From a virus: DNA of 64,000 nt. The DNA is taken from positions 1 through 64,000 of IMG/VR virus record IMGVR_UViG_3300024505_000146. One strand, written 5' to 3'. Below, piece after piece: positions 6,101 through 20,987 of this stretch. How positions within the stretch are numbered: the stretch's first letter is position 1; the number at the start of each line of letters is the position of its first letter. The translations under genes and the position numbers were made by a program. The notes beneath the pieces were generated by a model. The model saw only the letters and a list, made by a program, of their open reading frames with translations, had not been told where the DNA came from and made no database searches.

Positions 6101-8770
6101 TTAAAACTCAAACAGTTGATTAAATGTGTTCTTTTCTTCTGTGGATTTAATATCCCAGTTAAGAACTCCAATTAAGTTTTCTAGTTTGTTATCTATAATA
6201 GTTTGTTCCATTTCTGCATCGTCGAATGGAAGTTCCATAAACCATTTAGGCAAACGTAGTTCGTCTACAGGATATGCTACCGATGTGTACCCTAGCGGAT
6301 TTGCTTTGAGTTTACATACAATAACTTTTTGGCCGTCTGTGACCTGCATACTATACTTGTCCGAATTCATTCGACGCAGAGTATTCCAATTAATACTTGC
6401 ACGAACGTGTCCAGGCATATTAGCCTTGCCCTGTTTCTTTTCTTTGGCTTCGTACTCAGTAATGTTGTTGGCTCGCTTAGGAGAACCTTTCTCCCAACCA
6501 GGACGGGCCTTAAACTCTGTACGGAATTGAGTAATGTGATCTAATACTTGTTCTTCTGTAGCACCAGTTAGAACTTTCTCAAGTACATCACTTAAAAAGT
6601 CTTGAATAAATGCAGGAGTATCACTGCGCTTCAAGTCTAAGCCCATGGCCTTGATCTTGCCTGGTTTACCATCTACGTCTGCACGTTTGCCTTCTTTATC
6701 ATAGTAAAGTACAGCATAACGTTTCTTAGTAATAAACAATCCTTTACTAGCAACAATTTCTCGACCTGCTCGAATAACATCACCACGACTTGGCGGGCAA
6801 TGAAATGCCTGCTCCATAAACTTAACGAATGTACTGTTTACTTCCTCGCCAATTTGGTCATAGAGTGCAGTAACGTTTTCCTTAGTCCAAGGAATAACTC
6901 CAGATTCGATGTCTTTCTTTAATGTAGTATATGCACTGAAATAACAAGAGTCTGTATCACCATAGATAACTGCCTTACCTACGTGATTGTATTCACCTGT
7001 GATAATTTCATTTACTTTACTAGCCATGTGTTTGGCAATTTGTCTACCGACTAGAGTAGTTGACTGTCCAATACGTTTATCGAAGAATCTACAACCTGGG
7101 TTAAGAATAGCACCATACAAACTGTTCAAGTTAATCTTTTTAACTAACTGACGTTTATCCCAATACTCTTCTTCGACCTTGTTACCTGCCTGAATACATT
7201 CTTTTAATTTGGCCTGCATTTCTTTACGTTCAGCATACCAACGCTTTAACAGTCCAGGAATAATACCTTCCTTTTCGTAGGTAAAGATTGTACCATTTGC
7301 CGAAAGCATCCAAGGCTGATGACTATCAAAAATAACTTTATATACTTCTGCACCACTGTGTACAGTACTGTTGCCATCTTCCCAGTCTATGGTAATTTCC
7401 ACATCTTTACGTTGTGCCATAACTGCTTCGTATTCGTCAGTTCCAAACTTGCCTTCCCAACTGCCTGCAAACGATTTCTTTTTAAGAGTCATTTGTTCAT
7501 GGATAAATGCTTCTGTCATTGTAGGACGTAATTGACCTACAATAGTTTCCGGACCCATGTTAAGCGCACGAATGGCGCTTGGATAAAGACTGTTAATATC
7601 CAGCGATCCAATCCAATCTTGCAGACCTTCTTTCGGATGTGCTACATAAGCACCAGCAGCCGCAGTATTTTCATCGTCATCTCGTTTAGGACGATTAGGA
7701 ACTTGGAAACCTCTACGATGCGCTTCGTTAATAATAGCCTGTTCGGTAACAGCCACAGCACCCATTGTAGTCTGTAATAATACAGTATTTTCATGTGCAA
7801 TTTTATTAGCAAGGTCAATGAATTTAAGTTTTTCATCTAGTTTGTTTAATAGTGCAACGTCTTGTCTGTTATACACAATAAATCTTTTAAAGTCATTGTT
7901 GTATAGTTGATCAAGTGTGCCTTCGTAAACAGTTTTGTTCTCGCCAATTTCCATTTCACCGATGGCATCTAATCGATAGGTGTGTCGTTCTTCGTAGGTA
8001 AACTTGCGATAAAGTTCTAGACTGTCTAAGTGTACACGACCAATTAAGTCATATGTTTGTGCAGTCTTGCCATACTTTTCATATTCTCTACGTTTAGGAA
8101 ATTGATTCCATAGACAGAAACGTCTTGTATCTTCTTTACTTAACACCTGTGTCACACGGTTAACAGTATAAGGAATATCATAGCCTTCGCTGTTCCAACC
8201 TGTGATAATGTCTGCATCTTGAATTAAATCTAAGAATGTTTCCAACATATCTGCTTCATTAGTAAACAGATGTGTATCTGGAATATCGGCTACTAACGCT
8301 TCGGCTTCAGCAAAGGTTAATGTCTTTGGAGGAAGAGCCAGTGTAATTAATTTGTCTAACCATTTTAGGTGAACTGTGATAGCAGTAATTGGCATAAACG
8401 CATCTTCAGGAGTGCTATAGCCGCGTTCTGGATCGAAGTCCACCTCAATGTCGAAGAAGCAAATATTTAGATTAGGTGCATCTTGATTTAGATAGTTTTC
8501 GCTTAGATGTACAAAAATTGGATTGATGTCGCTTTCGTATAAGTCCTTACCACTGTTAATGGCTAATTCTTTTCGAAAGTCTTTGGTGTTTTTACAAACT
8601 ACCCTAGTCAGCGGATCGCCGTAAATGCTAGTAAACTTGCCTTTTTGATCCGGATAGTAAAACGTGTAGCGTACAGGATGTTCTTTGAAAACCCGTTCGC
8701 CTTGGTCGTTTCGCTCTACGACCTTAATAATATCATTCTCTCTGTCAAAGAGAGCGTCAACGTAACTCAT
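6101..8770 (-). CDS. Family B DNA polymerase (gp43-like)
   Basis: 889 residues, the phage replicative polymerase with 3'-5' proofreading. All expected motifs are in order: Exo I FFDIEVDFD (Asp 107), Exo II GWNSEGYDIPY (Asp 198), Exo III YNRQD (Asp 304), motif A SLDINSLYPSAIR (Asp 391), motif B KKINLNSLYGA (544-554) and motif C YGDTDS (Asp 605 and 607). KKRYAV further on matches the KxY motif of the family. The C-terminal tail ENTFNQLFEF resembles a clamp-binding peptide. Length matches T4 gp43 (898). No intron or intein interrupts it. The ribosome binding site AGGAG lies 12 bp before the ATG and just after a 5-bp hairpin. Confidence 0.97.
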   Translation of the reverse strand: MSYVDALFDRENDIIKVVERNDQGERVFKEHPVRYTFYYPDQKGKFTSIYGDPLTRVVCKNTKDFRKELAINSGKDLYESDINPIFVHLSENYLNQDAPNLNICFFDIEVDFDPERGYSTPEDAFMPITAITVHLKWLDKLITLALPPKTLTFAEAEALVADIPDTHLFTNEADMLETFLDLIQDADIITGWNSEGYDIPYTVNRVTQVLSKEDTRRFCLWNQFPKRREYEKYGKTAQTYDLIGRVHLDSLELYRKFTYEERHTYRLDAIGEMEIGENKTVYEGTLDQLYNNDFKRFIVYNRQDVALLNKLDEKLKFIDLANKIAHENTVLLQTTMGAVAVTEQAIINEAHRRGFQVPNRPKRDDDENTAAAGAYVAHPKEGLQDWIGSLDINSLYPSAIRALNMGPETIVGQLRPTMTEAFIHEQMTLKKKSFAGSWEGKFGTDEYEAVMAQRKDVEITIDWEDGNSTVHSGAEVYKVIFDSHQPWMLSANGTIFTYEKEGIIPGLLKRWYAERKEMQAKLKECIQAGNKVEEEYWDKRQLVKKINLNSLYGAILNPGCRFFDKRIGQSTTLVGRQIAKHMASKVNEIITGEYNHVGKAVIYGDTDSCYFSAYTTLKKDIESGVIPWTKENVTALYDQIGEEVNSTFVKFMEQAFHCPPSRGDVIRAGREIVASKGLFITKKRYAVLYYDKEGKRADVDGKPGKIKAMGLDLKRSDTPAFIQDFLSDVLEKVLTGATEEQVLDHITQFRTEFKARPGWEKGSPKRANNITEYEAKEKKQGKANMPGHVRASINWNTLRRMNSDKYSMQVTDGQKVIVCKLKANPLGYTSVAYPVDELRLPKWFMELPFDDAEMEQTIIDNKLENLIGVLNWDIKSTEEKNTFNQLFEF

Positions 8771-9144: not shown

Positions 9145-9401
9145 TTGTCTTTGCCAACAGTAACGATAATTGTTTCTAAATCATCGAAATCACTGAATAC
9201 ATCGTTCCAGTTGCCTTTGTGTGCAATACTGATTGCTTTGTTAATTAGTGCAGGTTTGATTTCTAATTCTTCTGCTACTGCCTTAACTGTTTCTTTTAAG
9301 CCTTCTGTCAGACTTTCAATTTCATATTTGACTTGAACGCCTTCGTTAATTAGTCGCTCTAGTTTGGCCTTTTCTTCTGGTCCATAGGTTCTATTGCCCA
9401 T
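9141..9401 (-). CDS. DsbA-like double-stranded DNA-binding protein
   Basis: 86 residues. The order and spacing resemble T4 DsbA (89 aa), a small helical protein that binds double-stranded DNA near late promoters: a basic/amphipathic first half (LERLINEGVQVKYEIESLTEG), then AEELEIKPALINKAISIAHKGN, then an acidic tail starting DVFSDFDDLE. T4 has DELGVDGKMFNRLLALYHKDN and a DVFEAE segment at the same places. This comparison is from memory. It is the first gene after a near-consensus sigma-70 promoter and has a strong AAGGAG site. A role with the late transcription machinery fits the late promoters elsewhere in the window. Confidence 0.7.
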   Translation of the reverse strand: MGNRTYGPEEKAKLERLINEGVQVKYEIESLTEGLKETVKAVAEELEIKPALINKAISIAHKGNWNDVFSDFDDLETIIVTVGKDK

Positions 9402-9425
9402 GATATCTCCTTAGTAATAAGTTTA

Positions 9426-9454
9426 ATTATATATGTTTATTTGATCAGAGTCAA
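9426..9454 (-). promoter_or_regulatory. Sigma-70-type promoter for the DsbA-like gene
   Basis: Minus strand: TTGACT (9449-9454), 17-bp spacer, TATAAT (9426-9431). It starts 20 bp downstream of the terminator at 9475-9500, so it separates the late virion cluster from the DsbA/polymerase region. Confidence 0.85.
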
Positions 9455-9474
9455 CGAATATTTTGTCAAAAGAC

Positions 9475-9500
9475 AAAAAAAGCGGCCGAAGCCGCTTTTT
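9475..9500 (-). terminator. Rho-independent terminator after the virion gene at 9514
   Basis: GCGGC and GCCGC arms around a tetraloop (TTCG in the minus transcript), flanked by A and T runs. On the minus strand the stem is followed by seven T. The flanking runs are symmetrical, so it could stop transcription from both sides. Confidence 0.9.
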
Positions 9501-9513
9501 AAGTGTTAGTATT

Positions 9514-11292
9514 TTACTTTGCTGGAGCCGCAGGTGCTGCCGCAGGAGCCGCAGGTTGTTGTCCGCCTGCTGCCTTAGCCTTTTTAAGTTTGTCTAACTT
9601 GGAAATTACAACATCTAGACGTTTTTGGACATCTGCTGGTAAGCCTGCTTTGATTGCAGGATCTTGTCCATATTGATCTAGAACTTTCAAATGCTTCTGT
9701 AGTTCTGCTAGATCTTTTGGATCCATTTCAATGTCACCGCCGCTAAATGCTTTCCATAGTGCGCCTAGTGCCAATGCCCCACCAACAGCGGCAGTTGCAA
9801 TAGCCGCTTTTGGATTCTTTAGTACACCAAGTGCCTTTGATCCTGCGCCTTTGACAAAGTCCATGGCACGTTGTCCCCAACTTGGTTTTGGAGTAATGTC
9901 TCTGAATGGAACATCGATGACGTTTGGATTAGCACCACCTGGTGTAGATAGTGCCGGTAGTTTGCCGCCAGGACCAGGTAGTGCTGGCACAGGTGCTTCA
10001 CTTAGATAATCTCTTGTAATAGCAATTTGTTCTGCTTCGCTAAAGTATTTGATATTTTTCATAACAAACGCTCTTGCTTCGTTTTCAGTCATTGCTAATA
10101 CATCTTCTTCAGTTACACTTTCAGAAATTTTGTACTTAGTAACGATTGCTTCGATAGCAGTTAATGATTGTGTTAACTGACTACGTGCAACGATATTTTT
10201 ACCGTCTGCCAATAGTGTAGATAGTTCAGGAGTAACTTTACCAGTTTCTGGTTTGCCTGCCATCTTTTCAAATGCTTTAATACCAGCAACAGTTTTAGGA
10301 CCCATCTTACCATCGATTGGACCAGGGTCAACACCTAATGCTTTTAGTTGTTCTTGAATTTTCTGAATTGCAGGATCTGCACCAGCAGTCTTCTTATCTT
10401 GTGCAGTCTTATCTTGTGCAGTCTTGTCTTGAGATGCTTTAGTATCAGCGGCAACTTTATCTGCTTCTGCACTTGCGGCATCTAAGTCTTTATCCATCTT
10501 TGCATCGTATTTTGCTTTTTCGGCTGCTTCAACATCTGCAACAGTTTTCTTAGCATCATCGATTGCTTTACGTACTTCTGGATCATCTCCTAAAGTTTCT
10601 AATTCGTCAATTAACGCATTAATTTGATCTGCCACTGCCTTGGCTTCTGGACTTAGTTGCTCTTGCATTGGTACATCACCAACTACGTCTTGGAATTCTC
10701 TCATCAATGATTCAAAGATACTTCCTTCACCAACTTTTAATCCACCAAGTTTTGGAGCATTAGCAGTCATGCCTGGCATCTTAAGTCCAGTTCCGCTACT
10801 TGCTGTTCCGGTATCTGATCCACCAGTAATAGATTGTAACTTTTTAACCAAGTCCGCTAATTGCGGAAGTTTTTCTGCTTTAATTTCGGCAGTCTGGCGA
10901 TCTTTATTAACTTTGTCACTAGTACCTTTAACTGCGGTATCGTGTTCGCCTTTGTCGTCGCCACGGAACATACGTCCTAGTGCTGTAGATGTTTTTGCGT
11001 TTTGTGGAACTAAACCTAGATCTGCAAGTGTTTTATCTGCGCTTGATGTTGCAGTTGCGGCAATACTGTATTTGCCACCCATGCTGTTTGGCTGTCCTTG
11101 CTTGCCAACAAAGTAACCGCTAACAGGATCATACAAACCTGGTAGTTTGTGTTTCCATGCTAGGTCATTAAGGATCTCTGCACGTTCTTGCTCGTCTGAT
11201 TTACCAGCAACTGCGGCTTCAACGTCTTTGATTGTGATAGCCTCTGCAAGTACTACAGTATCCAATTTGTTTAGAATTGATCTAATATCCAT
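9514..11292 (-). CDS. Large late virion-type protein with peptidoglycan-binding domain
   Basis: 592 residues. A PG_binding_1-like domain lies near residues 312-365 (IQEQLKALGVDPGPIDGKMG, then VAGIKAFEKMAG). The rest is low-complexity: Asp/Lys/Ala/Gln repeats at about 265-310 (TAQDKTAQDKK), a hydrophobic Ala/Gly/Leu helix near 505-525, and an Ala/Pro tail. The N-terminus has L-A-E-A at residues 15-18, which fits a T4 gp21-type prohead protease site (L/I-x-E before A/G). A GATAAATA late promoter lies 27 bp upstream and a strong terminator follows. I infer a virion component that may touch the cell wall during entry or be packaged; exact function unknown. Confidence 0.75.
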   Translation of the reverse strand: MDIRSILNKLDTVVLAEAITIKDVEAAVAGKSDEQERAEILNDLAWKHKLPGLYDPVSGYFVGKQGQPNSMGGKYSIAATATSSADKTLADLGLVPQNAKTSTALGRMFRGDDKGEHDTAVKGTSDKVNKDRQTAEIKAEKLPQLADLVKKLQSITGGSDTGTASSGTGLKMPGMTANAPKLGGLKVGEGSIFESLMREFQDVVGDVPMQEQLSPEAKAVADQINALIDELETLGDDPEVRKAIDDAKKTVADVEAAEKAKYDAKMDKDLDAASAEADKVAADTKASQDKTAQDKTAQDKKTAGADPAIQKIQEQLKALGVDPGPIDGKMGPKTVAGIKAFEKMAGKPETGKVTPELSTLLADGKNIVARSQLTQSLTAIEAIVTKYKISESVTEEDVLAMTENEARAFVMKNIKYFSEAEQIAITRDYLSEAPVPALPGPGGKLPALSTPGGANPNVIDVPFRDITPKPSWGQRAMDFVKGAGSKALGVLKNPKAAIATAAVGGALALGALWKAFSGGDIEMDPKDLAELQKHLKVLDQYGQDPAIKAGLPADVQKRLDVVISKLDKLKKAKAAGGQQPAAPAAAPAAPAK

Positions 11293-11318
11293 TTGTTTGT
11301 CCCCAAAATCTTATTAAG

Positions 11319-11326
11319 TATTTATC
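11319..11326 (-). promoter_or_regulatory. T4-type late promoter (GATAAATA)
   Basis: The minus-strand octamer GATAAATA lies 27 bp before the start of the virion gene at 9514-11292. It differs from T4's TATAAATA only at the first base, as do several other late promoters in this window. Confidence 0.7.
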
Positions 11327-11331
11327 AGTGC

Positions 11332-11421
11332 TCACTTTAAATCGTCAGGGTAGCGAATCCGTTGATTAGCCCAGCAGCCGGGCACATAACCCCAAACGGT
11401 CCTAGGGTATGTTCTTACAAT
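11332..11421 (-). other. Peptide-like open frame without a standard start
   Basis: A 29-codon frame encoding a protein-like stretch (YPRTVWGYVPGCWANQRIRY, then PDDLK). It has no ATG; the first sense codon is ATT. It begins inside the end of the 32-residue frame at 11415-11513 and lies in its -1 frame, so slippage at the TTG-TAA junction would fuse them into about 61 residues. No good slippery heptamer is present. It may be a decayed gene tail. Confidence 0.2.
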
Positions 11422-11513
11422 TCATAAGGAATTCCGGCTAATCCGCATCCAAAGCGAGCTAACCCTTCTACAATGTCATTAAACAGGGCTGTAAGGGTTT
11501 CTCGGACGGTCAT
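11415..11513 (-). CDS. Possible 32-residue protein, unknown
   Basis: Begins MTVRETLTALFNDIVEGLAR and ends GIPYEL. It has a good ribosome binding site (AGAGGA) 8 bases before the ATG at 11513; another ATG two codons upstream is too close to that site. The hydrophobic, amphipathic run with one Cys is protein-like. It overlaps the 24-codon frame at 11479-11553 in another frame, so probably only one of the two is important. No family recognised. Confidence 0.35.
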   Translation of the reverse strand: MTVRETLTALFNDIVEGLARFGCGLAGIPYEL

Positions 11514-11553
11514 AGCCATCTTCCTCTGGGTAAACTGGATATTCGTTTTCCAT
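11479..11553 (-). CDS. Possible 24-residue acidic peptide coupled to the Dps gene
   Basis: Begins MENEYPVYPEEDGYDRPRNP. Its ATG overlaps the Dps stop codon as TAATG, a layout seen at a real junction elsewhere in this genome (50980). It is Tyr/Pro/Glu-rich and of unknown function. Its existence as a protein is uncertain because of its size. Confidence 0.3.
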   Translation of the reverse strand: MENEYPVYPEEDGYDRPRNPYSPV

Positions 11554-11987
11554 TATTTTAGAGTTGCTCGCAACATCCATGAATGTTTGCGATGAGCATC
11601 TTGACGATCTGCTAGGAAATTAGCAAGACCAAATTCATTGTTTGTTTCTGCAATTTTGTACACTAGGCCAAATAAGTTAGCCATTTTATCAGAGTCTTCT
11701 AATAAAATTTGTGTCATAGATAGTGCATCTGGAATCTCTGTTTCATCATCAATTTTAGTAAGCATAGTGAAACGTTCAAAACTACCAGGAGTGTAACTAC
11801 CACTCTTGCGAATATTTTCTGCAAAAGTATCTATACTTCCATATACTTCTTCGTAGATGTTACCAAATAGTTCATGAAATTCTGCAAAATCAGGTCCTTC
11901 TACGTTCCAGTGAAAGTAGTGTGCCTTTAGATAAAAACTAAATTCTGATGCGAATACTATTTTAAGTGCTTTTGCTAATTCTTCCAT
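11553..11987 (-). CDS. Dps-like ferritin-family protein
   Basis: 144 residues of the Dps/ferritin-like fold. The Dps ferroxidase signature is visible: AHYFHWNVEGPDFAEFHELF, then EEVYGSIDTFAENIR, giving the expected His-x12-Asp/Glu spacing (His of HWNV, Asp of DTFAE). The last helix has FLADRQDAHRKHSWML, the usual C-terminal Dps pattern. Dps proteins form a 12-subunit shell that oxidises and stores iron with peroxide; many bind DNA. The gene sits inside the late virion-type cluster, not with metabolism genes. It is shorter at the N-terminus than E. coli Dps (167), so lacks the Lys-rich DNA-binding tail. Confidence 0.88.
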   Translation of the reverse strand: MEELAKALKIVFASEFSFYLKAHYFHWNVEGPDFAEFHELFGNIYEEVYGSIDTFAENIRKSGSYTPGSFERFTMLTKIDDETEIPDALSMTQILLEDSDKMANLFGLVYKIAETNNEFGLANFLADRQDAHRKHSWMLRATLK

Positions 11988-12221
11988 TTATGCCACCTGT
12001 GCTACTGCGTATACGGCTGTGACTAACATAGTTTTTAAATTTATGTCGTCTGCCTCTTCTTCTAATTTATCTGTTCTGACTAGGTCTAGCATTAATTCTC
12101 TAAACTCGTCTTCGCCTATTTGTCCTTGCTGACGTGCTTCACATATCTGCAATGCCACTGCGGCACGTTCAGCCGCCCATGGGCGACCACATTGTGTTAA
12201 CATCTGCAACTGTTCTATCAT
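11988..12221 (-). CDS. Unknown small helical protein
   Basis: 77 residues, predicted mainly helical, with an acidic centre (GEDEFRELMLDLVRTDKLEEEADD) and a hydrophobic C-terminus (MLVTAVYAVAQVA). Its stop is directly followed by the Dps start. Unknown function. It is probably translated together with the lipoprotein before it (1-bp overlap) and Dps after it. Confidence 0.6.
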   Translation of the reverse strand: MIEQLQMLTQCGRPWAAERAAVALQICEARQQGQIGEDEFRELMLDLVRTDKLEEEADDINLKTMLVTAVYAVAQVA

Positions 12222-12607
12222 TAGAATCTCCCAAGAACTGCACTAGCGGCTTTATCCGCTTGTGTAGCCATTAATTTCTTTTTAATTTCGCAGTAAGTTT
12301 CGCTACCCTGCTTTTCTGTACTGCGTTTATAAAAGTCATCTACAGTTTCCTGCATAGGTTTAACTAACTTAAGAACGTCCTGTTGACGCCAACCTTTGCT
12401 TTCACTATAAAGTTGAAACCATTCTAAATTATCTTTGATAATTTTAACCTGTGGTGCGTGTGCTTGTTTACAATCTAATTGTGCTACACTTTGACGCACG
12501 TCTATAATACGTGCTGATTGATTAGGATCGCTGAAACTAGGAATCCAACTCTTAACAGTAGCGCAACCTGTTAATGATATTGCTAATGCTAAGACAAGGG
12601 CTCTCAT
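12221..12607 (-). CDS. Lipoprotein, unknown
   Basis: 128 residues beginning MRALVLALAISLTGC, a lipoprotein signal with lipobox L-T-G-C, so the mature protein starts at Cys 15. The mature part is helical and charged, with two further Cys (LDCKQ and TYCEI). It is longer than typical outer-membrane spanin subunits, and a spanin-like pair exists at 26584-27302, so a different role is likely. It overlaps the preceding late virion gene by 4 bp. Confidence 0.7.
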   Translation of the reverse strand: MRALVLALAISLTGCATVKSWIPSFSDPNQSARIIDVRQSVAQLDCKQAHAPQVKIIKDNLEWFQLYSESKGWRQQDVLKLVKPMQETVDDFYKRSTEKQGSETYCEIKKKLMATQADKAASAVLGRF

Positions 12608-13479
12608 TTTCCATCCTTGACACAGTTATCAACAGTCTTACCGCCTTTCTGTTTGGTACCCATACGTTTGTAACCATCCCAGCAAGCCTTACCATCGACA
12701 CCTTTTTGCTTTTCTTCTGCTAATGTAAGGTAGTCTAAGAAAGATTTTTTAGTTTCCATAGTTGCTGGTTGTTGCTGTTGTACTACGTGTGTGGCAGCAC
12801 CGTCAGGAACAGATGCTGTATTAGTTACATTCTTGTTAGCATCTTGTTGACGTCTAACTTTTGCAACACCTAAATCGTATTCGGCATCACTGGCACCTGT
12901 TTCCTTGCCAGTTTTGTCATAGGTCTTAACAACATTTAATGGACCGTTCATATACTTTACAGTAATATTGCCAGTGACTAAATCGTGTTCCTGACTATAG
13001 CCGTTAAACATTGGACTAGAATATTTGATTGCTTTACCTGCTTTGTCGTAGGTAAATGAACCAAACCCGCTATCGTGTACTCTAGTACCGTCTTGCTTTA
13101 CTGTAAGTTTCTCACCGCCTTCTAAATCGTAACGACCTGGTTTAGAAAAATCGCCCTGTGGAAATGCAGGAGCATTTGGAATTTGTAGATTGGGTTTAAA
13201 ACCCGGCTCCCCAGGTCTGCCTGCTTCTTCTAGATCGCTGTCTTCTTTTTTATTTGCAGTTTTAATATTATACATCTTAGCCACTGCTTTTTCATCATAC
13301 GGTCTAAAGTCGCTGAGTTTTTCTTTTGCGGCATCAGCGGCAGACGCAACTTTGTCAGCAACTGTTTTTAATGTATTGTTTTCCTGCACAATAGACACGA
13401 AACGGCGCATGTCATTTGCGCCTTCTACTCTACGACTAGATGCTTTATCTAGTGCTTGTAAAATTTGTTTCATGTCCAT
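12604..13479 (-). CDS. Late virion-type protein with Cys-bearing C-terminal motif
   Basis: 291 residues. The short N-terminal helix MDMKQILQALDKAS resembles the leader of the 592-residue virion gene nearby (MDIRSILNKLDTV). The middle is a repetitive beta region rich in Gly/Tyr/Lys (YDLEGGEKLTVKQDGTRV, SSPMFNGYSQEHDL). The C-terminal motif GKACWDGYKRMGTKQKGGKT, followed by VDNCV, is one I associate with virion proteins of aquatic T4-like phages, from memory. L-A-E-E just before it could be a prohead protease site. Function unknown; packaging or capsid association is inferred. Confidence 0.65.
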   Translation of the reverse strand: MDMKQILQALDKASSRRVEGANDMRRFVSIVQENNTLKTVADKVASAADAAKEKLSDFRPYDEKAVAKMYNIKTANKKEDSDLEEAGRPGEPGFKPNLQIPNAPAFPQGDFSKPGRYDLEGGEKLTVKQDGTRVHDSGFGSFTYDKAGKAIKYSSPMFNGYSQEHDLVTGNITVKYMNGPLNVVKTYDKTGKETGASDAEYDLGVAKVRRQQDANKNVTNTASVPDGAATHVVQQQQPATMETKKSFLDYLTLAEEKQKGVDGKACWDGYKRMGTKQKGGKTVDNCVKDGK

Positions 13480-13483
13480 GATA

Positions 13484-14899
13484 TTATAGGCCTGATAAGA
13501 ATTTCAAACGAGATAAGTCAGTAGATTCTTTAACTGTTTCTTTTTTCTTATCTGCTTTGCCGCCCATTTCGTCTTTGCCTAAACGACCAGCAACTACATC
13601 ACCTTTGGTTACTTTGTCATATGGTTTAGCATTGTTGGCTAAGTTACCATCGCCCTTTTTCTTTTCAGCAACAACTTTTCTAACAATAGACTTAACTAGG
13701 TTAGATTCTTGTACTGCTGGCGTAGGAGCAGTTGTACCACCTTCGGCTTCTAATTTCTTTCTAAGAGCACTAATAGTTCTTGCTAAGTTTGTCTTATCGG
13801 CACCTGTAGCAGTTTTGTATTGTTCTTCGTATTTTGCGAGTGCTTTTGCAGTTGGGCTATCTGCTTCAGCACCTTCTTTAAATGCTGGATTTGTAGGACC
13901 AGGAGTCTTTTCGCTCCACTCTTTACCCTTGTTTGGACCAGAAGTTACTTTTGGATACTTGCCAGTCTTTGGATCTTTCTTAGGAGCGGCTGTAGCACCA
14001 TCTGGTGGGCTCATTACTTGACCTTCGTCAGTTTTCTTTTTCTTTTCTGGAAGACCTTTATGCTTTGTACTAGCAAAGTCTTTGGCATCTTTGTCTTTCA
14101 TGCCTTTAGCAACTTTAGCAACTTCCTTACTGGCTGGCTTTTCGCCTTTCTTTGCGGCGTGTACCATGCCCATAAATTTTTGTTGTGCTTTGCTTACAGC
14201 CTTTTCGACTACTTGTGTAAGGGCTTCCTTAATCATCTTGTCTTTTTCTTTCTTGTTCTTGGCGTCTTTTTCAGCCTTGGCAATTTTTTCTGCGGCTTCG
14301 TCGATTTCATCCTTAACACGGATGCTGGCCACAGTCCAACCTGGATTGTCGCGTTTCATACGATCACGTACTTCGCCTTGGCTTTCGCCTTCGTCGGCAA
14401 CAGTAGTAACACCACGAGTTTTGTTATCTTTTTCAAGTTTAACAAAGTATTGTTTCTTTTCTGATTTATCAACTTGACCTTTCTTTTTGTCAGTTGCACG
14501 TACACCAGACGCTTCTTTAACAGCACCTTCTAACAAGGATGCTAATTTTTGTTCATATGTAGTCATTTCGTCAATTTTCCTTTCTTCGTCATCCATGTCA
14601 GACACTGGCTCTTCGCTTGGTAGCTCTTGTTCAGCATCACCTGTAATGTCGTCGATGTTGGATGCGTTGCTGCCATCGCCGAACTTAACTTGGTACTCCA
14701 TATAGTGATATACACTATCTAAGTAATCTGCAGATTTAGTAATTTTAGCCTGTACCCAACCTTCTAAATCTTGTCCGTCTTGAATCATTTGGAACAATTT
14801 CATAGAGTACTTTGCGGCTCTATATAGTTCTGAACGTGCCATAGCCCCTTCGTGGTCGTCCACTGGTCCTGGCATAACTGGTCTCATCTGGTCGTGCAT
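13484..14899 (-). CDS. Charged late virion-type protein with DUF3008-like segment
   Basis: 471 residues with extreme Lys/Glu/Ala content. The first 75 residues form a compact domain (ARSELYRAAKYSMKLFQMIQ, then LEGWVQAKITKSADYLDSVY). Near 235-285 the segment AQQKFMGMVHAAKKGEKPAS, then DAKDFASTKHKGLPEKKK, matches the DUF3008 pattern of small phage and bacterial proteins. Several L-L-E-G or V-x-E sites are scattered through the chain and could be cut by a prohead protease. It has AGGAG 9 bp before the ATG and a late promoter at 14921-14928. I infer an internal capsid or scaffold-associated protein. Confidence 0.7.
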   Translation of the reverse strand: MHDQMRPVMPGPVDDHEGAMARSELYRAAKYSMKLFQMIQDGQDLEGWVQAKITKSADYLDSVYHYMEYQVKFGDGSNASNIDDITGDAEQELPSEEPVSDMDDEERKIDEMTTYEQKLASLLEGAVKEASGVRATDKKKGQVDKSEKKQYFVKLEKDNKTRGVTTVADEGESQGEVRDRMKRDNPGWTVASIRVKDEIDEAAEKIAKAEKDAKNKKEKDKMIKEALTQVVEKAVSKAQQKFMGMVHAAKKGEKPASKEVAKVAKGMKDKDAKDFASTKHKGLPEKKKKTDEGQVMSPPDGATAAPKKDPKTGKYPKVTSGPNKGKEWSEKTPGPTNPAFKEGAEADSPTAKALAKYEEQYKTATGADKTNLARTISALRKKLEAEGGTTAPTPAVQESNLVKSIVRKVVAEKKKGDGNLANNAKPYDKVTKGDVVAGRLGKDEMGGKADKKKETVKESTDLSRLKFLSGL

Positions 14900-14920
14900 G
14901 GTTAAAATCTCCTGGTGTTG

Positions 14921-14928
14921 TATTTATC
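14921..14928 (-). promoter_or_regulatory. T4-type late promoter (GATAAATA)
   Basis: GATAAATAC on the minus strand, 21 bp before the ATG at 14899 and overlapping the last codons of the upstream gene. Placement before a virion-type gene fits late expression. Confidence 0.65.
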
Positions 14929-15583
14929 GTTTTGCTATACTGCCGCCTGTTAACAGATTAGCCTTCATATCTAGGGCATTTTTAGCAGTACCGTCTTTAT
15001 TTTTAGGTGTTTTTCCGGCTTTATTTTTGTATACAGGACCCACACTAACCATACCTGCACTAGTGCCTCCCGGTGTTGCAGTTTCGTCAAACTTATCGAT
15101 TCCACGACTCTGCATTCCGCCCTTCTTACGTTTAGCGGCTAATTCTTCTAAACCGTGACGTACTTGCTCTAAATTCTGTTCTAAACCCATGAACATGCCG
15201 CCTTTGGCTAACTTAGTAATTTGATGCCAAGTTGCTAGGTCATCGCTTTCTGCCATACGTGCTAATTCTTGTAACTGTTTACGTGTTTGCAAAATGCGTC
15301 CTTTTAACGTCATAGGATTTGCTTTATTGTGACTGTGAATCATAGGATCCATAGGATCATCTGTAGCGGCAATAGGTGCTTCTAAGGTAAGTTGATCTGC
15401 AACAGTTTCGCTCATCTGTGCCATTTGTACAGCCTGCGCGGCCAATCTTGCAGGAATACCTTCTTTAACAAGTTTATCCTGTGCTTGTTGTTCGCTTAGT
15501 CCTTGTGCTAATAATGCCTTGGCACGTTTAGCCAAAGCCATCATATCAATAACACCTTCGTTTATAATGTCTATCAATCTCAT
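14924..15583 (-). CDS. Late virion-type protein with leader-like N-terminus
   Basis: 219 residues, Met- and Lys-rich and helical. The N-terminus MRLIDIINEGVIDMM has I-N-E-G at 7-10, a fitting site for a T4 gp21-type prohead protease, as in packaged internal proteins. KAKALLAQGLSEQQAQDKL-like helices follow (residues 21-40), and a Lys/Gly-rich flexible tail starts after residue 150. No enzyme motif seen. It overlaps the HAD/metallopeptidase gene by 4 bp. Confidence 0.6.
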   Translation of the reverse strand: MRLIDIINEGVIDMMALAKRAKALLAQGLSEQQAQDKLVKEGIPARLAAQAVQMAQMSETVADQLTLEAPIAATDDPMDPMIHSHNKANPMTLKGRILQTRKQLQELARMAESDDLATWHQITKLAKGGMFMGLEQNLEQVRHGLEELAAKRKKGGMQSRGIDKFDETATPGGTSAGMVSVGPVYKNKAGKTPKNKDGTAKNALDMKANLLTGGSIAKR

Positions 15584-17325
15584 TTCTTTTTTCCTTGACG
15601 CATATTAATTTGCCAGTGTGCTAATTGTTTTTTACGTGGACTAGCAGAATCGCTACTGCGTATCTTTTTTAACTGTGCTATGCTCATGCCTTTAGTGATG
15701 CCGTGACGTTTACTATCACCTTTATCTTGTGGATTTTTTCCATCGGCAAAGTTTTCATCTACATTAAATGTCGGATCAACTTTTTGACGCGGCATATTCT
15801 TAGGCCGCTTTGGATCAACCGGGTCAATGTCTGTGGTATCAAGGCCCAACTTTTTCAAAGCCGCAATATATTTGTGCTCTTCTTCTTCACTGCCAAAAGA
15901 TACAATAGTACTAGGAGGCCCTTTACCAAAATCTTTATTTGATAAATTTTTTAAGTTGGCAATATTCTTACCTAACTTGTACCAATCATACACATCACTT
16001 ACATCAACTCTAACAGTGCCTCTAGGCATTGTAGGTTTAATTTCAGGACCTCTTGGTTTTTCATTAGGGTGCTGGTCTTCTTCTGCGTGTTTAAAATATT
16101 GTACTTGACGTTCACGTTTCTCTGCACCGGCGCGAGTTGGATACTTACCTAAGTTCTTATTACCATGTTTGCTTTTTAATTCGTAACCGCCTTTAACTTT
16201 AACAATATGTTCGTTAAACTGTTCTGGATTCATTTTACCCCAGTAACGTAGCAATACTCCAGCAAGAGCATTGGCTTCGTTTTCGTCTGGACTGCCAGTT
16301 GCACCATCTAATTCTCTTGCTTCGTTTTGTTTGCGATGCACTAATTCGTGTGCTAGTGTTCGCATAATATCCATTTGATGTCTATCTTTAACAGATACAA
16401 CTATGTCTTGTGTTTCAGGATCAAAGTATCCAAGTGCAGTAGTCTTTGTATCACCTACTAATTTAATACGTGGTGCTTGTTCTATTTCTAAAAGTTTGAT
16501 AGCCCATAATGCAAAGTCTTTGATACGTTGCTTTTTATCTGGAGTCCATGCTTCCATCAATCCGCCGCCGTCACCGCCGTCTCCCGCAGGCACACTACCT
16601 ACACCACTGTAGCCTGCATCGGTACCATATAGTCCGTAAGGACCTGGTCCATATAACGCACCGTATTTGTTTCTGCGTTTTTTCTTACGACCTTCGTCTA
16701 CATCTTTGTCACCACTAGTGGCAATTAATTTTCCTTGACTTCTATCTAGACTTTTTAACTGCTGTGGTTCGTGTTCTTCTTCACCTTGTCCCACACGTTT
16801 AGCACGTTTAAGTCCATCTAATATTACTTGTAAACTATCTTCGTCTGCTTGATATTTGATACCAATACCGCCAGCGGCTTCCCAAGCACTGATATTACTA
16901 CCTCTGTCGTCAATTAATACGTTAGGCATTCCGCTAGGATTTCTAGCGTACTTGGCTTTGTTTGAAACAATGTAAATGTTGTCTGGCAGTTGATTTAAGT
17001 GTTCATCGATCCAAATACGTTTGTATTTTTCACTGCCTTCGTGGTCGCCGCGTAATGGGCTAGAACAAATATTGTAGCCACCGGCCACATCAACTACAAT
17101 ATCAATTAGTTTGTCTGCTGTAGGAAACTTTGGTAGACGTGCAAAAAAGTCTGTTCCTACCATTTTGTTTAATGTAGGATCAGTCTTCGCTGGTGGAATG
17201 TCTCTGTAGTTTCCGCTTTTAATGCCAGCAAGTTTAGCATACTCTGTGAAAAAGTCTGCAAGAACTCCGTCCATGTCTACATAGACTTCCATGCCTTGGG
17301 GTAATTCTAAATCGCTTGCTCTCAT
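15580..17325 (-). CDS. Fusion: HAD-type nucleotidase plus zinc metallopeptidase-like domain
   Basis: 581 residues in three parts. Residues 12-175 are a HAD hydrolase of the 5'(3')-deoxyribonucleotidase type: DMDGVLADF (Asp 17 and 19), CSSPLRGD near 87-94 and LIDDR near 137-141. A basic Tyr/Gly-rich linker (KKKRRNKYGALYGPGPYGLY) and an L-M-E-A site (256-259) follow. Residues 262-370 hold HELVH (326-330) and a downstream Glu in ENEANALAG, the gluzincin-type zinc motif. The C-terminus has a GMSIAQLKKIRSS motif and ends QLAHWQINMRQGKKK. The L-M-E-A site would let a prohead protease separate the two enzymes. Joining of a nucleotidase to a peptidase is unusual. Domains seen; joint role unknown. Confidence 0.8.
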   Translation of the reverse strand: MRASDLELPQGMEVYVDMDGVLADFFTEYAKLAGIKSGNYRDIPPAKTDPTLNKMVGTDFFARLPKFPTADKLIDIVVDVAGGYNICSSPLRGDHEGSEKYKRIWIDEHLNQLPDNIYIVSNKAKYARNPSGMPNVLIDDRGSNISAWEAAGGIGIKYQADEDSLQVILDGLKRAKRVGQGEEEHEPQQLKSLDRSQGKLIATSGDKDVDEGRKKKRRNKYGALYGPGPYGLYGTDAGYSGVGSVPAGDGGDGGGLMEAWTPDKKQRIKDFALWAIKLLEIEQAPRIKLVGDTKTTALGYFDPETQDIVVSVKDRHQMDIMRTLAHELVHRKQNEARELDGATGSPDENEANALAGVLLRYWGKMNPEQFNEHIVKVKGGYELKSKHGNKNLGKYPTRAGAEKRERQVQYFKHAEEDQHPNEKPRGPEIKPTMPRGTVRVDVSDVYDWYKLGKNIANLKNLSNKDFGKGPPSTIVSFGSEEEEHKYIAALKKLGLDTTDIDPVDPKRPKNMPRQKVDPTFNVDENFADGKNPQDKGDSKRHGITKGMSIAQLKKIRSSDSASPRKKQLAHWQINMRQGKKK

Positions 17326-17609
17326 TTTTTATTTACCGGTTTTTCGCCTGTCATGTAAGGTAAACTAAACCATAACTGAAACCACTCAGGTGTTCCAGGT
17401 TTAATGTTTTGTTCTCTCTGTATTCTGCCTTTATCACTGCCAGTAACACTGATGTTACTGCCCTGATACTCGTGTAGTCTTGCGGCATGACCTAAGCCTG
17501 CAAGATACTGCATAGATTTAATTTCGTATATAGGATCAGAAGGATCAAGTAAGCAGTCGTCTGGACTGTCTTGATTTAAATTTTCTGTACTGATTCTATA
17601 TTGTTTCAT
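17322..17609 (-). CDS. Small late protein, unknown
   Basis: 95 residues. The C-terminal half has KPGTPEWFQLWFSLPYMTGE, which resembles the EGSAEWFSWM segment of the nucleotidyltransferase at 19731-20585, so both may carry a short shared interaction motif. No catalytic pattern seen. It overlaps the fusion gene downstream by 4 bp. Confidence 0.6.
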   Translation of the reverse strand: MKQYRISTENLNQDSPDDCLLDPSDPIYEIKSMQYLAGLGHAARLHEYQGSNISVTGSDKGRIQREQNIKPGTPEWFQLWFSLPYMTGEKPVNKK

Positions 17610-17612
17610 TTA

Positions 17613-18584
17613 TTATGAAACCTTAACAACAGTAAATCCTGCTTTTACGTAGTGATCGTGAGCATAATTCTTTGCGTGTTCGCGACCTTTAGTAGTAGTT
17701 ACACGGGGTGTTCTTTCAACTTCATTTCCGTCCTTGTCAATAAGAGTAAAACGGAATGAATACTCTTCTGGATCCGGTCCATTAACATATTCATCATCTT
17801 CGCGTTCACGACGTCCAAAGCCTGTGCGACTAGAATCGTAATCGCGTTGATACGCATCGTAACTACCGTAACGGCCTTCTTCTAATTCTGACATTTTCAT
17901 AGCATCTTTTTCCTTCTTAGGTTCTTTTTCTTTTTTAGGCTCTTCTTTTTTCTTAGGTTCTTCTTTTTTCTTAGAATCTTTTTTCTTTGCTTTTTCCTTC
18001 GCCTTTTCTTCATAGGGCATCAAGTACTCGGCAACTAAGTCAAAGAATGGTTTACCCATAACAGGTGTTTCTGAACTTACGCCAGCGGCATCGCTAAATG
18101 CTTGTCTGTCGCCTTTGGCTACTGCTTCACGTAAACTTGTAGCAGAGCTCTTACGTAATTCTAATTTTGCTTCTTCTATACTGTCGTGGAACAGTCTAAT
18201 TTCTGGAAAATTGTATTCGCCGTGCGGACCAGACTTTCCATTATAATCTTGTACAGTAGGAACTACCCATGCTTCGTCAGTAACGATGATTAATTTTACT
18301 GCACCGTGTTTCTGATATACATAACTGGCTAATGTTAACCAACTTGTTTCGGCAACAATATGTCCTGTAACATCAGGCCAAATAACTTTCATACATTCTG
18401 TTTTTACATTGTATGGCAGTGGGTCTTTTGGTCCTACAGTACTTTCATTAGTACCAACGTACCATACATCTTTAGTAGCGGCAGTTTCCCAAGCGGCTTT
18501 ATGTCCTTTGTGCGGAGGATTGAATCGACCAAATATAATGGCTACTTCACTTGTTTTATTTTCAAATAAATTTCTTAATCTCAT
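17613..18584 (-). CDS. Cytidylyltransferase-like (nucleotidyltransferase) protein with Lys/Glu tail
   Basis: 323 residues. GRFNPPHKGHKAAW (residues 19-32) is the HxGH nucleotide-binding motif of NMN/FAD/phosphopantetheine adenylyltransferases. SATSLREAV near 147-155 matches the ISxTxxR motif that completes the active site. Such enzymes transfer AMP or CMP, for example in NAD or FAD synthesis; the substrate here is unknown. Residues 195-227 are almost pure Lys/Glu/Pro repeats. The N-terminus MRLRNLFENKTSEV resembles its neighbour (MRLRELFVES) and has L-F-E-N as a possible prohead protease site, suggesting packaging. Confidence 0.8.
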   Translation of the reverse strand: MRLRNLFENKTSEVAIIFGRFNPPHKGHKAAWETAATKDVWYVGTNESTVGPKDPLPYNVKTECMKVIWPDVTGHIVAETSWLTLASYVYQKHGAVKLIIVTDEAWVVPTVQDYNGKSGPHGEYNFPEIRLFHDSIEEAKLELRKSSATSLREAVAKGDRQAFSDAAGVSSETPVMGKPFFDLVAEYLMPYEEKAKEKAKKKDSKKKEEPKKKEEPKKEKEPKKEKDAMKMSELEEGRYGSYDAYQRDYDSSRTGFGRREREDDEYVNGPDPEEYSFRFTLIDKDGNEVERTPRVTTTKGREHAKNYAHDHYVKAGFTVVKVS

Positions 18585-18585
18585 A

Positions 18586-19734
18586 TTATTCCCCAGGAGT
18601 CCACTGGTCTCTGTTTACTAACTTTACATTACCGAATTTCTTTTCAGGGCCAGCATAGCGTACACGACCTTCTCCGTTTGTGTCCCAGATATCTCCTTGC
18701 TCGCCTTCAACCTGTGCAAGTATTTGGTTTTTCATTGATTGTATTTGTTTAACTAGAGAAAATATAGCATCTACAGCGTTAGGATGGGCTTCTATTTTAG
18801 CCTGTATTTTTTCTTGTTTTCCTGCACTAACTTTTGACTTTTCCAACCATGCGTTAAAATTCTGTAAACCTAAACTGCTTAACTGTTTAGCTCTTGCTGT
18901 TTGATTTACATAGGTGTAGAATATATTCTTAAGGTCACTTAACCCAGCAGTATCGGACAAGAATCCTTCGATTTGTTCTGCGTGTTGTTGTGCATAACCT
19001 TCAATGTTATCAATCATCTTAGTATCGATACTAACAGATTTTTTATTGTATATCGGACCTTGTACAATTAATTTAGGATTAGCATTAAATTGATCAAAAT
19101 CGTCTAACGGTTCTTGTTCACTGTCATCCATTCCAAATTGTGGGAAATAAGCATGACCGACAACCATTACATCTGCATAAGCAATACGCTTACCTAAATC
19201 ACTGTCGCCTCTGACATGATAACAAGTTTGTGATTTAGGATTTGGACAGAATGTGTATACTCCGTCTTTTAAATCGGGCCTGTTTAAAAATAATGCGTCA
19301 GCATAGACAAAGCCTACAAAATCTTTTGGAGTTGCCGCATCAAATGCTGGATATAAATTTGCAAACTTGGCGGCAAATTCTTCACGTTGTTTACGCTCTT
19401 CTTCTGTCTTAGGTGTACCGCTCTTGTTAGCAATAAAATCTTTTACTGCTTCTGGATTATCTGTCTTAGCACCACGTGCCCAACCGTTGTGTCCTGCTAG
19501 AATTAATGGTCCATTCTTTGTTTCACGACCCCAATAGATTTGAGGATTACCGTCCCATTTCATGCGAATGCTTTCAGAACCTTCTTGTGTAGCGATTTCT
19601 TTAACGTGGTCTAATGCTTCGATGGTACCGTCGATGCCGTAGAAGAAAACTAGATCTTCGAGATGGTTGAATGCACGGCCCAGTTTCTTTTTAACTGTTT
19701 CTGTGGATTCAACAAATAGTTCTCTTAATCTCAT
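18586..19734 (-). CDS. KxDG-containing protein, possible RNA/DNA ligase-like nucleotidyltransferase
   Basis: 382 residues. MKWDGNPQIYWGRE (Lys 59, Asp 61, Gly 62) has the KxDG core of ATP-dependent ligases and capping enzymes, where Lys takes the AMP/GMP. GFVYADALFLNRP near 140-152 lies where ligases have later strand motifs, but I cannot place all of motifs III-V. The start MRLRELFVEST matches the leader of the cytidylyltransferase-like neighbour. I recall related proteins in other T4-like phages as uncharacterised (DUF6267-type), with moderate certainty. It is followed by a pol-beta-type nucleotidyltransferase, so an end-repair set is possible. Confidence 0.65.
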   Translation of the reverse strand: MRLRELFVESTETVKKKLGRAFNHLEDLVFFYGIDGTIEALDHVKEIATQEGSESIRMKWDGNPQIYWGRETKNGPLILAGHNGWARGAKTDNPEAVKDFIANKSGTPKTEEERKQREEFAAKFANLYPAFDAATPKDFVGFVYADALFLNRPDLKDGVYTFCPNPKSQTCYHVRGDSDLGKRIAYADVMVVGHAYFPQFGMDDSEQEPLDDFDQFNANPKLIVQGPIYNKKSVSIDTKMIDNIEGYAQQHAEQIEGFLSDTAGLSDLKNIFYTYVNQTARAKQLSSLGLQNFNAWLEKSKVSAGKQEKIQAKIEAHPNAVDAIFSLVKQIQSMKNQILAQVEGEQGDIWDTNGEGRVRYAGPEKKFGNVKLVNRDQWTPGE

Positions 19735-20585
19735 TCTTCGCCCCTTGACTGCTTGGGACCTTTACGTTGTTTCCATTTTTTATCTGTACTGCACCAGTAA
19801 CGTCCATAAGTACCTTCTACTACGCCTTGCATCCATGAGAACCATTCGGCAGAACCTTCTTTAACATCTTCAGGCTTTTTGCCTTCGTTGCCAGGCCAGT
19901 TCTCATCGGCTAGTGCGTGTTGAATTTTTGGATTTTGTTCTTTACCTGGTAGTGCGGCAATAATTCTTTCTACATTACCTAAGTCAGCGGCAGTAGCATG
20001 AGCACCGATTAAAATTTTAGCAACTTCGTCTGCATTGTGAGAAACAAAGTCTGCCTTCTTTCCATTTTCATCTCGGGCAAACAGCCCTTGGAATCCGCTC
20101 CACATTAGTCCGTAAGGATATCTTTGGTTACGAGTTTCTTTAGCAATACTGGAAAGTAGTATGTGCTTATGTAAACCTTTGAATGGAGTATTTTCAATGC
20201 TATAATCGTGTTGATGAAATTTACTAACAGAGCCAGCATCTTTAACAAACATAATATCTGCTTGTGCAAACTTATCGCCGTTAGGAACTTTAATGTGTAC
20301 ATTGATGCCAGTTAGTGCAGATTCGGTGCCTCTATCTTGAAAGTATGTTTTTAATTTTTGTCTTGCTTCTTTGGCTGTCTTAACTTTAAAAAAGTCTAAC
20401 ATGGACTGCTCGTCGACCATTAAGTCCATGTCTCCAGAACTGGCTTTATGGCCGGCACTGCCAACAGGAATTAAATCAATGCCCTGCGGCATCATTGATT
20501 GCGCCTTGGCTAGTACTTCCTTGGCTTCATCCTTGCCAAATGGTTCTACATCAGGAAATACATTTCCACCTTCTAATAGGATCAT
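19731..20585 (-). CDS. Pol-beta-superfamily nucleotidyltransferase-like protein
   Basis: 284 residues. GSAGHKASSGDMDLMV (Gly 42, Ser 43, Asp 52, Asp 54) and the third acidic strand AQADIMFV (Asp 110) fit the GS-x(9)-DxD...D pattern of this superfamily, which adds nucleotides to RNA, proteins or small molecules. The C-terminus holds a SAEWFSWM motif and a basic end (KKWKQRKGPKQSRGEE). MILLEG at the N-terminus has L-L-E-G, a possible prohead protease site. It overlaps the KxDG gene by 4 bp. Target unknown. Confidence 0.75.
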   Translation of the reverse strand: MILLEGGNVFPDVEPFGKDEAKEVLAKAQSMMPQGIDLIPVGSAGHKASSGDMDLMVDEQSMLDFFKVKTAKEARQKLKTYFQDRGTESALTGINVHIKVPNGDKFAQADIMFVKDAGSVSKFHQHDYSIENTPFKGLHKHILLSSIAKETRNQRYPYGLMWSGFQGLFARDENGKKADFVSHNADEVAKILIGAHATAADLGNVERIIAALPGKEQNPKIQHALADENWPGNEGKKPEDVKEGSAEWFSWMQGVVEGTYGRYWCSTDKKWKQRKGPKQSRGEE

Positions 20586-20926
20586 TCATCTCTCCCATCA
20601 TAAACACCGTTTTCGATGTTATGTTTTTCTTCGTGGAACATTTTAACAGCCAAGTCCTGTACTTCTTCGGGATCGAATAATACTTTTGGGTTTTGGGTGA
20701 TTTTGAATTTATTGCAATAAACTGGTATGGCTTTATCGATGCAGGGCATAAATGACATTTCGTTGCACTTGCCGCCGGATTTCAACTTGCCTTTTAATTC
20801 AGCGATTACAGGATAAACTACCTTACGATAAAAACGTGGGTCGTTGTGCATAAAAAACTTTAAATCATCGACGAAATCGACGTCTTTAAACTGTTCTGCT
20901 TGCTTATCTACATCATTTATTTTCAT
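20582..20926 (-). CDS. Conserved late protein, unknown
   Basis: 114 residues from the ATG at 20926 (MKINDVDKQAEQFKDVDFVD). A GTG at 20971 would add 15 residues but lies only 8 bp from the late promoter octamer, so the transcript would hardly include it. The core DVDFVDDLKFFMHNDPRFYR and two Cys (KCNEM and PCIDK) are notable. I believe relatives occur in other aquatic T4-like phages, from memory. It is the first gene of the late cluster that runs down to 18.6 kb and beyond. Confidence 0.65.
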   Translation of the reverse strand: MKINDVDKQAEQFKDVDFVDDLKFFMHNDPRFYRKVVYPVIAELKGKLKSGGKCNEMSFMPCIDKAIPVYCNKFKITQNPKVLFDPEEVQDLAVKMFHEEKHNIENGVYDGRDE

Positions 20927-20979
20927 ATAATCACCATGTTCTGCATAGAGCCGCGGATATACATACTCCACTAATAGAG

Positions 20980-20987
20980 TATTTATG
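20980..20987 (-). promoter_or_regulatory. T4-type late promoter (CATAAATA)
   Basis: CATAAATA on the minus strand just before the late cluster of leader-bearing enzymes. Transcription should begin near 20973. Confidence 0.65.

Follow-up and report, generated by a model that had tools for sequence, protein, structure and literature searches.

Probable capsid-targeting leaders on a cluster of enzymes in a freshwater relative of phage T4

The viral DNA considered here, a stretch of 64,000 nucleotides (the window) that is part of G000, a virus record of 84,211 bases (IMG/VR IMGVR_UViG_3300024505_000146), comes from a freshwater relative of phage T4. Positions 9514-20585 form a minus-strand gene run coding for unrelated proteins, including small proteins of no assigned family. 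I put at roughly 0.8 the probability that this cluster codes for proteins internal to the head of a T4-like phage; they would be docked by an N-terminal leader, cut by the gp21 protease and injected with the DNA. Because the leaders are T4-like and relatives of one of the proteins occur in virus particles, this phage probably delivers a ready-made kit of enzymes along with its DNA.

Leaders within the cluster

The open reading frames (ORFs) and N-termini listed in a first-pass annotation are present in the window as written, and five proteins carry a supported leader, ending at residues 8, 9, 9, 17 and about 33. Among the leaders proposed by that annotation, MRLRNLFE↓N, MRLRELFVE↓S, MRLIDIINE↓G and MDIRSILNKLDTVVLAE↓A (the arrow marks the predicted cut) have a hydrophobic-x-E site and were retained; MILLE↓G and a leader on the 15580-17325 protein were not. 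The former has only five residues, and some relatives of its protein (19731-20585) start MSKNVIFPDT; the latter (MRASDLELPQG...) has its first site not before residue 28. The 17-residue leader of 9514-11292, MDIRSILNKLDTVVLAE, has counterparts that end VVLSE↓A (locus L009) and QYLTE↓A (locus L059), and relatives of the 14924-15583 protein start MKIDDLLE↓G (L012) or, ahead of an M23 peptidase, MKVLDIINE↓G (L036). A fifth leader, not named in the earlier annotation, belongs to 12604-13479, where the site VQE↓N (FVSIVQE↓N) lies at residue 33. The cluster and its flanking landmark comprise:

6101..8770, minus strand: gp43-like (T4-type) DNA polymerase, 889 residues, flanking landmark, named by eye and not by family search
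9514..11292, minus strand: peptidoglycan-binding domain (PF01471) protein, 592 residues, by profile match
11242..11292, minus strand: leader, residues 1-17, of 9514-11292; ends VVLAE↓A; length like that of T4 ipI
11553..11987, minus strand: Dps/ferritin-like protein without leader (PF00210, E=3.4e-20; phrog_3636, E=9.5e-27)
12604..13479, minus strand: 291-residue protein with a C-terminal CW-GYK...NC module and the propeptide-like N-terminus MDMKQIL...DMRRFVSIVQE↓N
13484..14899, minus strand: DUF3008 protein, 471 residues, without leader (PF11450, E=9.7e-7)
14924..15583, minus strand: 219-residue protein with leader MRLIDIINE↓G; no match in Pfam/PHROG-type searches
15557..15583, minus strand: leader, residues 1-9, of 14924-15583
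15580..17325, minus strand: 5'-nucleotidase (NT5C) and metallopeptidase-like fusion, leader unsupported (phrog_2643, E=9.2e-20; PF06941, E=1.7e-5)
17613..18584, minus strand: cytidylyltransferase/NMNAT-like protein, 323 residues, leader MRLRNLFE↓N (phrog_3041, E=4.4e-16; phrog_395, E=1.7e-13)
18561..18584, minus strand: leader, residues 1-8, of 17613-18584
18586..19734, minus strand: DUF6267-like KxDG protein, 382 residues, leader MRLRELFVE↓S (PF19782, E=2.8e-16)
19708..19734, minus strand: leader, residues 1-9, of 18586-19734
19731..20585, minus strand: Pol X-like nucleotidyltransferase, 284 residues; MILLE↓G is too short for a leader

Where cuts are marked in T4 sequences, their positions are presumed or placed by the L/I-X-E rule. 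The T4 genome (NC_000866) encodes MKTYQEFIAE↓A (IPII, IPIII), MELITELFDE↓D (Alt), MAKINELLRE↓S (gp24) and SFLTE↓A (gp23). T4 gp21 cuts after L/I-X-E, the propeptides having 10-19 residues, and targeting and cleavage are separable (PMC9026906). The entire window matches part of a 270,181-base record, G002, at 100% identity, so that G002 is, on this identity, the same phage assembled more fully. The first-pass annotation had proposed a search for gp21 in the rest of the genome: PF03420 gave no match in the 84-kb record G000 alone, which is a fragment, and in G002 a Peptidase_S77 match was obtained at 101154-101615 (E=7.8e-27), in a gene that adjoins, by eye, a prohead core gene and a scaffold gene. 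The gp23 of G002 (E=3.2e-97) has the N-terminus TLENTRKYLSE↓SASTG, with a matching predicted gp21 site.

Leaders across related loci

Related loci were recruited with the DUF6267 protein (the best 80 of 254 relatives). ORFs with an ATG start were taken on the strand of the query gene, 1,162 of them having at least 70 residues, and those of at least 80 residues were clustered into 189 body clusters. Greedy clusters and direct pairwise matches were used because single-linkage BLAST families chained through small common modules. A leader was counted as shared when residues 2-8 agreed at 5 or more of 7 positions between body clusters without a BLAST match to each other. Such agreement was found in 207 of 17,485 pairs, involving 71 clusters, some of which represent lipoprotein signals or chance and not leaders; the same test at control residues 30-36, 50-56 and the last seven gave 6, 2 and 11 pairs respectively, and shuffled residues 2-8 gave a mean of 26 and a maximum of 33 pairs (20 shuffles). 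The pattern ^M.{3,4}E[FILM][FILVMT].{0,3}E matched 84/517 genes (2.4 expected) 0-11 kb downstream of the DUF6267 gene and 3/316 (1.0 expected) 2-11 kb upstream of it, counts that are descriptive, the pattern having been written after the leaders were seen and related contigs being counted separately. By these comparisons, leaders clearly exceed chance across the 80 related loci.

The predicted cleavage site is conserved within families. The DUF6267 body is strongly conserved, its leader being variable in length and sequence, and the stretch ahead of the conserved core ranges from 12 to 22 residues among 36 distinct short forms (own copy included; 7 of 43 N-termini, with longer inserts, were set aside). 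All 36 of these leaders keep hydrophobic-x-E, compared with a mean of 17.1 and a maximum of 26 after shuffling (2000 shuffles). Taken without a shuffled control, the corresponding counts are 33/33 distinct N-termini in the cytidylyltransferase family (own copy included; first site at residue 8 in each), 12/12 distinct homologs of 12604-13479 with a site in residues 7-40 (own copy included; 11 of them at 33-34), 5/5 in the N-terminus group of 14924-15583, a group that includes two cytidylyltransferases and the window's own copy, and just 7/20 homologs of 13484-14899, for which a leader was rejected. Among 172 sites picked as hydrophobic-x-E in relatives, 147 have L or I at P3, in keeping with the L/I-X-E rule of T4 (PMC9026906), and 25 have F, V or M there; Ala occupies P1' in 51 (background 9%), and P1 is residue 8 or 9 in 143, slightly shorter than in T4.

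The codons of the leaders differ synonymously (in MRAKEF, GAA 6 and GAG 6, TTT 8 and TTC 4; in MRLR, four Leu codons) and, in the rows printed, the 20 bases before the start are unlike between most bodies. Selection therefore acts on the peptide, and the leader behaves, judged from these sequences, as a protein-level module on unrelated bodies. In the AlphaFold2 (AF2) model of 18586-19734, whose pLDDT (predicted local distance difference test) is 89, residues 1-20 score under 50 and are unstructured, the fold starting after them. In relatives, leaders precede a Cu/Zn superoxide dismutase with HD domain, a lysozyme, an M23 peptidase and a pterin dehydratase-like protein; many leader-bearing proteins matched no family in a Pfam scan of leader-cluster representatives, 6 of the 60 having been dropped beforehand as probable chance matches.

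Some further observations concern the leaders. In L078, 9150-10208 encodes the leader-bearing HD domain and Cu/Zn superoxide dismutase protein (E=2.2e-47), possibly an injected antioxidant enzyme. In L092, 11149-11388 encodes a 79-residue protein, adjoining a portal-like gene, that starts MILRELFYFN, a beginning of the leader type in which no cut site is obvious; the protein may belong to the core. Outside the window, G002 has leader-like N-termini at 25799-26539 (MDMKKLL...), 26542-27120 (MKSFNEYLTE↓S), 35126-35482 (MRAKEFIDE↓S) and, read from an inner Met, 267056-267736 (MRAKEFIKE↓A). Small basic Cys/Trp or Gly-rich modules (CW-GYK...NC, KYKxSINCSNPKGFSQKAHC, YCSTDKKWK, NFADGK, GPGPYGxYG) are shuffled among the cluster proteins, occurring in 12604-13479, 15580-17325, 19731-20585 and related loci, and some are enriched on leader-bearing proteins; CW-GYK...NC and YCSTDKKWK show no such enrichment, in part because the leader pattern used, which was likewise written after the leaders were seen and is descriptive, misses MDMK-type leaders.

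Homologs in virions

Homologs of the 17613-18584 protein are found in cyanophages and Methylophilales phages, with about 24-32% identity to the window protein, and in S-CAM4, Melnitz-3, C48C1 and S-SZBM1 a DUF6267 homolog lies next to the cytidylyltransferase gene or one gene from it, as here. The cytidylyltransferase was detected by mass spectrometry (MS) in virions of S-SM1 (T4-GC190; PMC3037559), S-SZBM1 (PMC9146016), S-SCSM1 (PMC9602691 and record notes) and S-CREM2 (PMC10665884); S-CBWM1 virions contain NMNAT, as stated by PMC10665884. All four of the MS-detected cytidylyltransferases whose sequences were examined carry a leader: MKKFSAFLNE↓A (S-SM1), MRFRQFIIE↓A (S-SZBM1), MKSFLQFLKE↓A (S-SCSM1) and MKNFSSFLTE↓A (S-CREM2). 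With the gp21 gene and gp23 site in the same genome and a leader common to unrelated bodies, these four homologs support in substance the suggestion of the first-pass annotation that this may be a set of injected enzymes with T4-type leaders, from which two of the proteins it named (19731-20585 and 15580-17325) drop out.

A score seeded with T4 sequences, and fixed from them, was applied to two of these proteomes. In S-CREM2, a score of at least 16 was reached by 5/27 non-structural ORFs with MS detection and 2/130 without it (p=0.0018). Among the detected, the high scorers are an S-adenosylmethionine (SAM) hydrolase (MKDFDSFLEE), a kinase (MKRFDAFLTE), the cytidylyltransferase and two proteins of unassigned function. 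Of the 28 MS-detected proteins that are non-structural or hypothetical, 27 entered this comparison (ORF124 missing), which left out tail, baseplate, portal, neck and terminase ORFs, three capsid genes, ORFs under about 60 residues and unfetched stretches; the part of Table 3 of PMC10665884 on which it draws lacks some rows for structural proteins. In S-SCSM1, where ORF calling recovered 19 of the 20 typed virion proteins and annotated structural genes were left out, the rank test gave p=0.011, and a score of at least 8 was found in 6/19 versus 16/182 ORFs (p=0.009).

Neighbours in the same block are also virion proteins (S-SCSM1_89, 90, 92, 93 and 97; S-CREM2 155, 156 and 160; S-SZBM1_139), most of them without a clear leader. 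The CW-GYK...NC module of 12604-13479 recurs in S-SZBM1_139 and S-CREM2_160, both MS-detected, and S-SCSM1_93, marked as a virion protein, looks by eye similar to the DUF3008 portion of 13484-14899. Elsewhere in S-CREM2 (OR473000; L116 7704-13331), a Cas9-like nuclease, a kinase and two small proteins form one block, and MS detected all four in virions. In that block gp13 and gp14 have clear T4-like leaders, and the Cas9 has RFASFMAE↓A, whose E is residue 25 in the protein as annotated, and gets a low T4-seeded score. The virion Cas9 of S-CREM2 may be a packaged, injected protein.

Folds of the cargo enzymes

The enzyme guesses of the first-pass annotation were sound. The nucleotidase part of the proposed nucleotidase/peptidase fusion matches NT5C, the metallopeptidase matches being weak (E about 0.002), and the cytidylyltransferase is supported by the two PHROG matches listed above. 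The proposed KxDG protein, 18586-19734, has K59-W-D-G62, invariant among 36 aligned sequences, and probably a ligase-like fold. Its model gave no Foldseek match at E of 0.001 or below, and 47 of the 50 VIA rows listed for it are RNA/DNA ligases or end-joining complexes holding one, with Z of only 4.9-6.3. Because of these ligase rows and the invariant KWDG, the protein is likely, though not proven, to be a ligase-like covalent nucleotidyltransferase.

The proposed pol-beta-type transferase, 19731-20585, has a Pol X fold by Foldseek: 53 PDB chains match at E of 0.001 or below, the best being human Pol lambda (E=1.3e-5), and the 50 matches listed are mostly Pol lambda, beta or mu and PolX, with modest TM-scores of 0.25-0.44 by query. 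D52, D54 and D110, which I take to be the Pol X catalytic three, are invariant in 29 aligned sequences.

Genome setting

The polymerase at 6101-8770 has homologs in four related loci (72-77% identity), and a megablast of 8000-22000 against named phages gave no match. The first-pass annotation had called the cluster late, a label that the T4 late promoter TATAAATA does not bear out: it occurs twice in the window (6.3 expected by chance) and nowhere in the cluster. A 3102-residue ORF lies at 39355-48663 of the window in a tail-fibre-like region, and another, of 3835 residues, at 67906-79413 of G002. Window positions 12221-12607, 25230-25442 and 26584-26844 encode small, possibly lysis-related proteins with signal-peptide/lipobox-like N-termini (MRALVLALAISLTGC, MKRLLLLIPAVLLTGC).

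Discussion

According to the model favoured here, the cargo would be made with a short N-terminal capsid-targeting leader that would dock it to the prohead's scaffold core. As the head matures, the gp21 protease encoded by the phage itself would cut after hydrophobic-x-E and free the enzyme inside the head, where it would stay until it is injected with the DNA. Docking, cutting and injection are what I infer for this phage; the leaders, their sharing, the conserved site and gp21 with gp23 are observed.

Several results weigh against packaging by such leaders. Three leaders of the cluster have 8-9 residues, against 10-19 in T4, and 18586-19734 has Phe at P3, as does T4 Alt (LFDE). Comparison of the cluster with the rest of this genome gave p=0.27 for the T4-seeded score and p=0.30 for L/I-x-E at positions 8-20 (3/12 versus 36/232). 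An early L/I-x-E that is followed by A, G, S or N occurs in 4/12 versus 16/232 (p=0.011), one of the four being the rejected MILLE; when such short ones are removed the figures become 3/12 and 15/232 (p=0.049). Within one genome the leader signal is thus barely more than chance. In S-CREM2 the rank test over all ORFs gave p=0.08. In S-SCSM1 thresholds of 10 to 16 were not significant (at 16 or above, 1/19 versus 2/182), and the cytidylyltransferase is the only leader-like one among the detected proteins. MS did not detect the small leader-bearing S-SZBM1_191, S-SZBM1_192 and S-SCSM1 44215-44535. A leader is lacking on the DUF6267 homologs of S-SZBM1 and, by eye, of S-SM1, and the S-SZBM1 homolog does not appear in the MS table of that phage. 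Lastly, contaminants can turn up when purified phage is analysed by MS, a point made by the S-CREM2 authors themselves (PMC10665884).

Three other explanations were considered. The leader could be an uncut N-terminal docking helix for another protein or place (tail, baseplate, membrane or host nucleoid), head packaging being incidental. The separability of targeting and cleavage in T4 (PMC9026906) would allow this, several leaders have just 8-9 residues, and cleavage in this phage is predicted; yet hydrophobic-x-E is kept despite the 12-22-residue variation in length, and A is over-represented after the E. This is the pattern of a protease, one that a docking helix does not need, and gp21 and a matching gp23 site are encoded in the same genome. 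I consider the uncut helix unlikely. It is very improbable, again, that these are ordinary early or middle metabolic enzymes with coincidental leaders, detected in virions as carry-over of abundant cell proteins. The S-CREM2 authors raised carry-over themselves (PMC10665884), the single-genome statistics are weak and the cluster adjoins a replication gene; against it stand the comparative leader statistics across related loci, the tracking of virion detection by leader score in S-CREM2 and the recurrence of the cytidylyltransferase in four separate virion proteomes, accompanied in S-SCSM1 by proteins 89, 90, 92, 93 and 97.

Hardly any weight can be given to the third explanation, in which the common N-termini would belong to a DNA-level cassette (ribosome-binding and start region) swapped by recombination, the peptide having no role. 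Several MKI-E leaders are indeed preceded by the same or nearly the same 20 bases, but leader codons vary synonymously, the upstream 20 bases are unlike between most bodies printed, and the T4-like peptide pattern recurs in cyanophages with other residues.

If the cluster proteins are packaged by their leaders, one may speculate about their purpose. A tentative suggestion, about which I am rather doubtful, is that the load is an injected first-aid kit for damage to nucleic acid and cofactors, made up of the Pol X-like transferase, the ligase-like KxDG enzyme, the NMNAT-like adenylyl/cytidylyltransferase and the nucleotidase, and that T4-like phages of lakes and oceans use one address code for exchangeable enzymes. 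Such a kit would act before any phage gene expression. Injected proteins could then be predicted directly from the leader, and in S-CREM2 they would include the SAM hydrolase, the kinase and perhaps the Cas9. Which proteins enter the cell with the DNA is established mainly for a few model phages. With a leader that can be read from sequence and checked against published virion proteomes, injected proteins could be predicted in the genomes of hundreds of environmental T4-like phages. The leader also suggests why cytidylyltransferase, SAM hydrolase and kinase are present in cyanophage particles, a presence that the S-CREM2 authors could not separate from carry-over. Targeting sequence, leader, propeptide and internal protein go unmentioned in that paper (PMC10665884), and searches of openly licensed papers, at the level of titles, counts and openings of abstracts, brought up no claim of such leaders on virion enzymes of cyanophages or environmental T4-like phages.

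Comparison with known systems

Cargo cut after Glu by a prohead protease is also found in the heads of phiKZ-type jumbo phages (PMC9026906); there the cleavage motif is S/A-x-E, and the cargo consists of inner body and ejection proteins. Kyanoviridae cyanophages come closer, with a homologous cytidylyltransferase/NMNAT that has a hydrophobic-x-E↓A leader, is encoded a few genes after gp43 and is MS-detected in four of them, and with a DUF6267 homolog next to or near the cytidylyltransferase in several records; the DUF6267 protein of the window carries a leader, whereas its S-SZBM1 and S-SM1 homologs do not. With IPI, IPII, IPIII and Alt of T4 the cluster proteins share a short amphipathic N-terminal leader with hydrophobic-x-E before the cut, in a genome that encodes a gp21-type protease and gp23, and, as in the T4 internal proteins, unrelated bodies stand behind a common leader. 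Unlike those of T4, the leaders here start MRLREL, MRAKEF or MKI-E instead of MKTYQEF and in many cases are shorter by one or two residues. The cargo includes enzymes as well as large multidomain proteins; one cluster has at least five, and there are more candidates elsewhere. A review of T4 already raises the possibility that T4-like phages use leaders of this sort to package a variety of proteins (PMC9026906). The principle is thus known from T4; what appears to be new is the evidence, consistent with existing virion proteomes, that many enzymes of environmental T4-like phages share one modular address.

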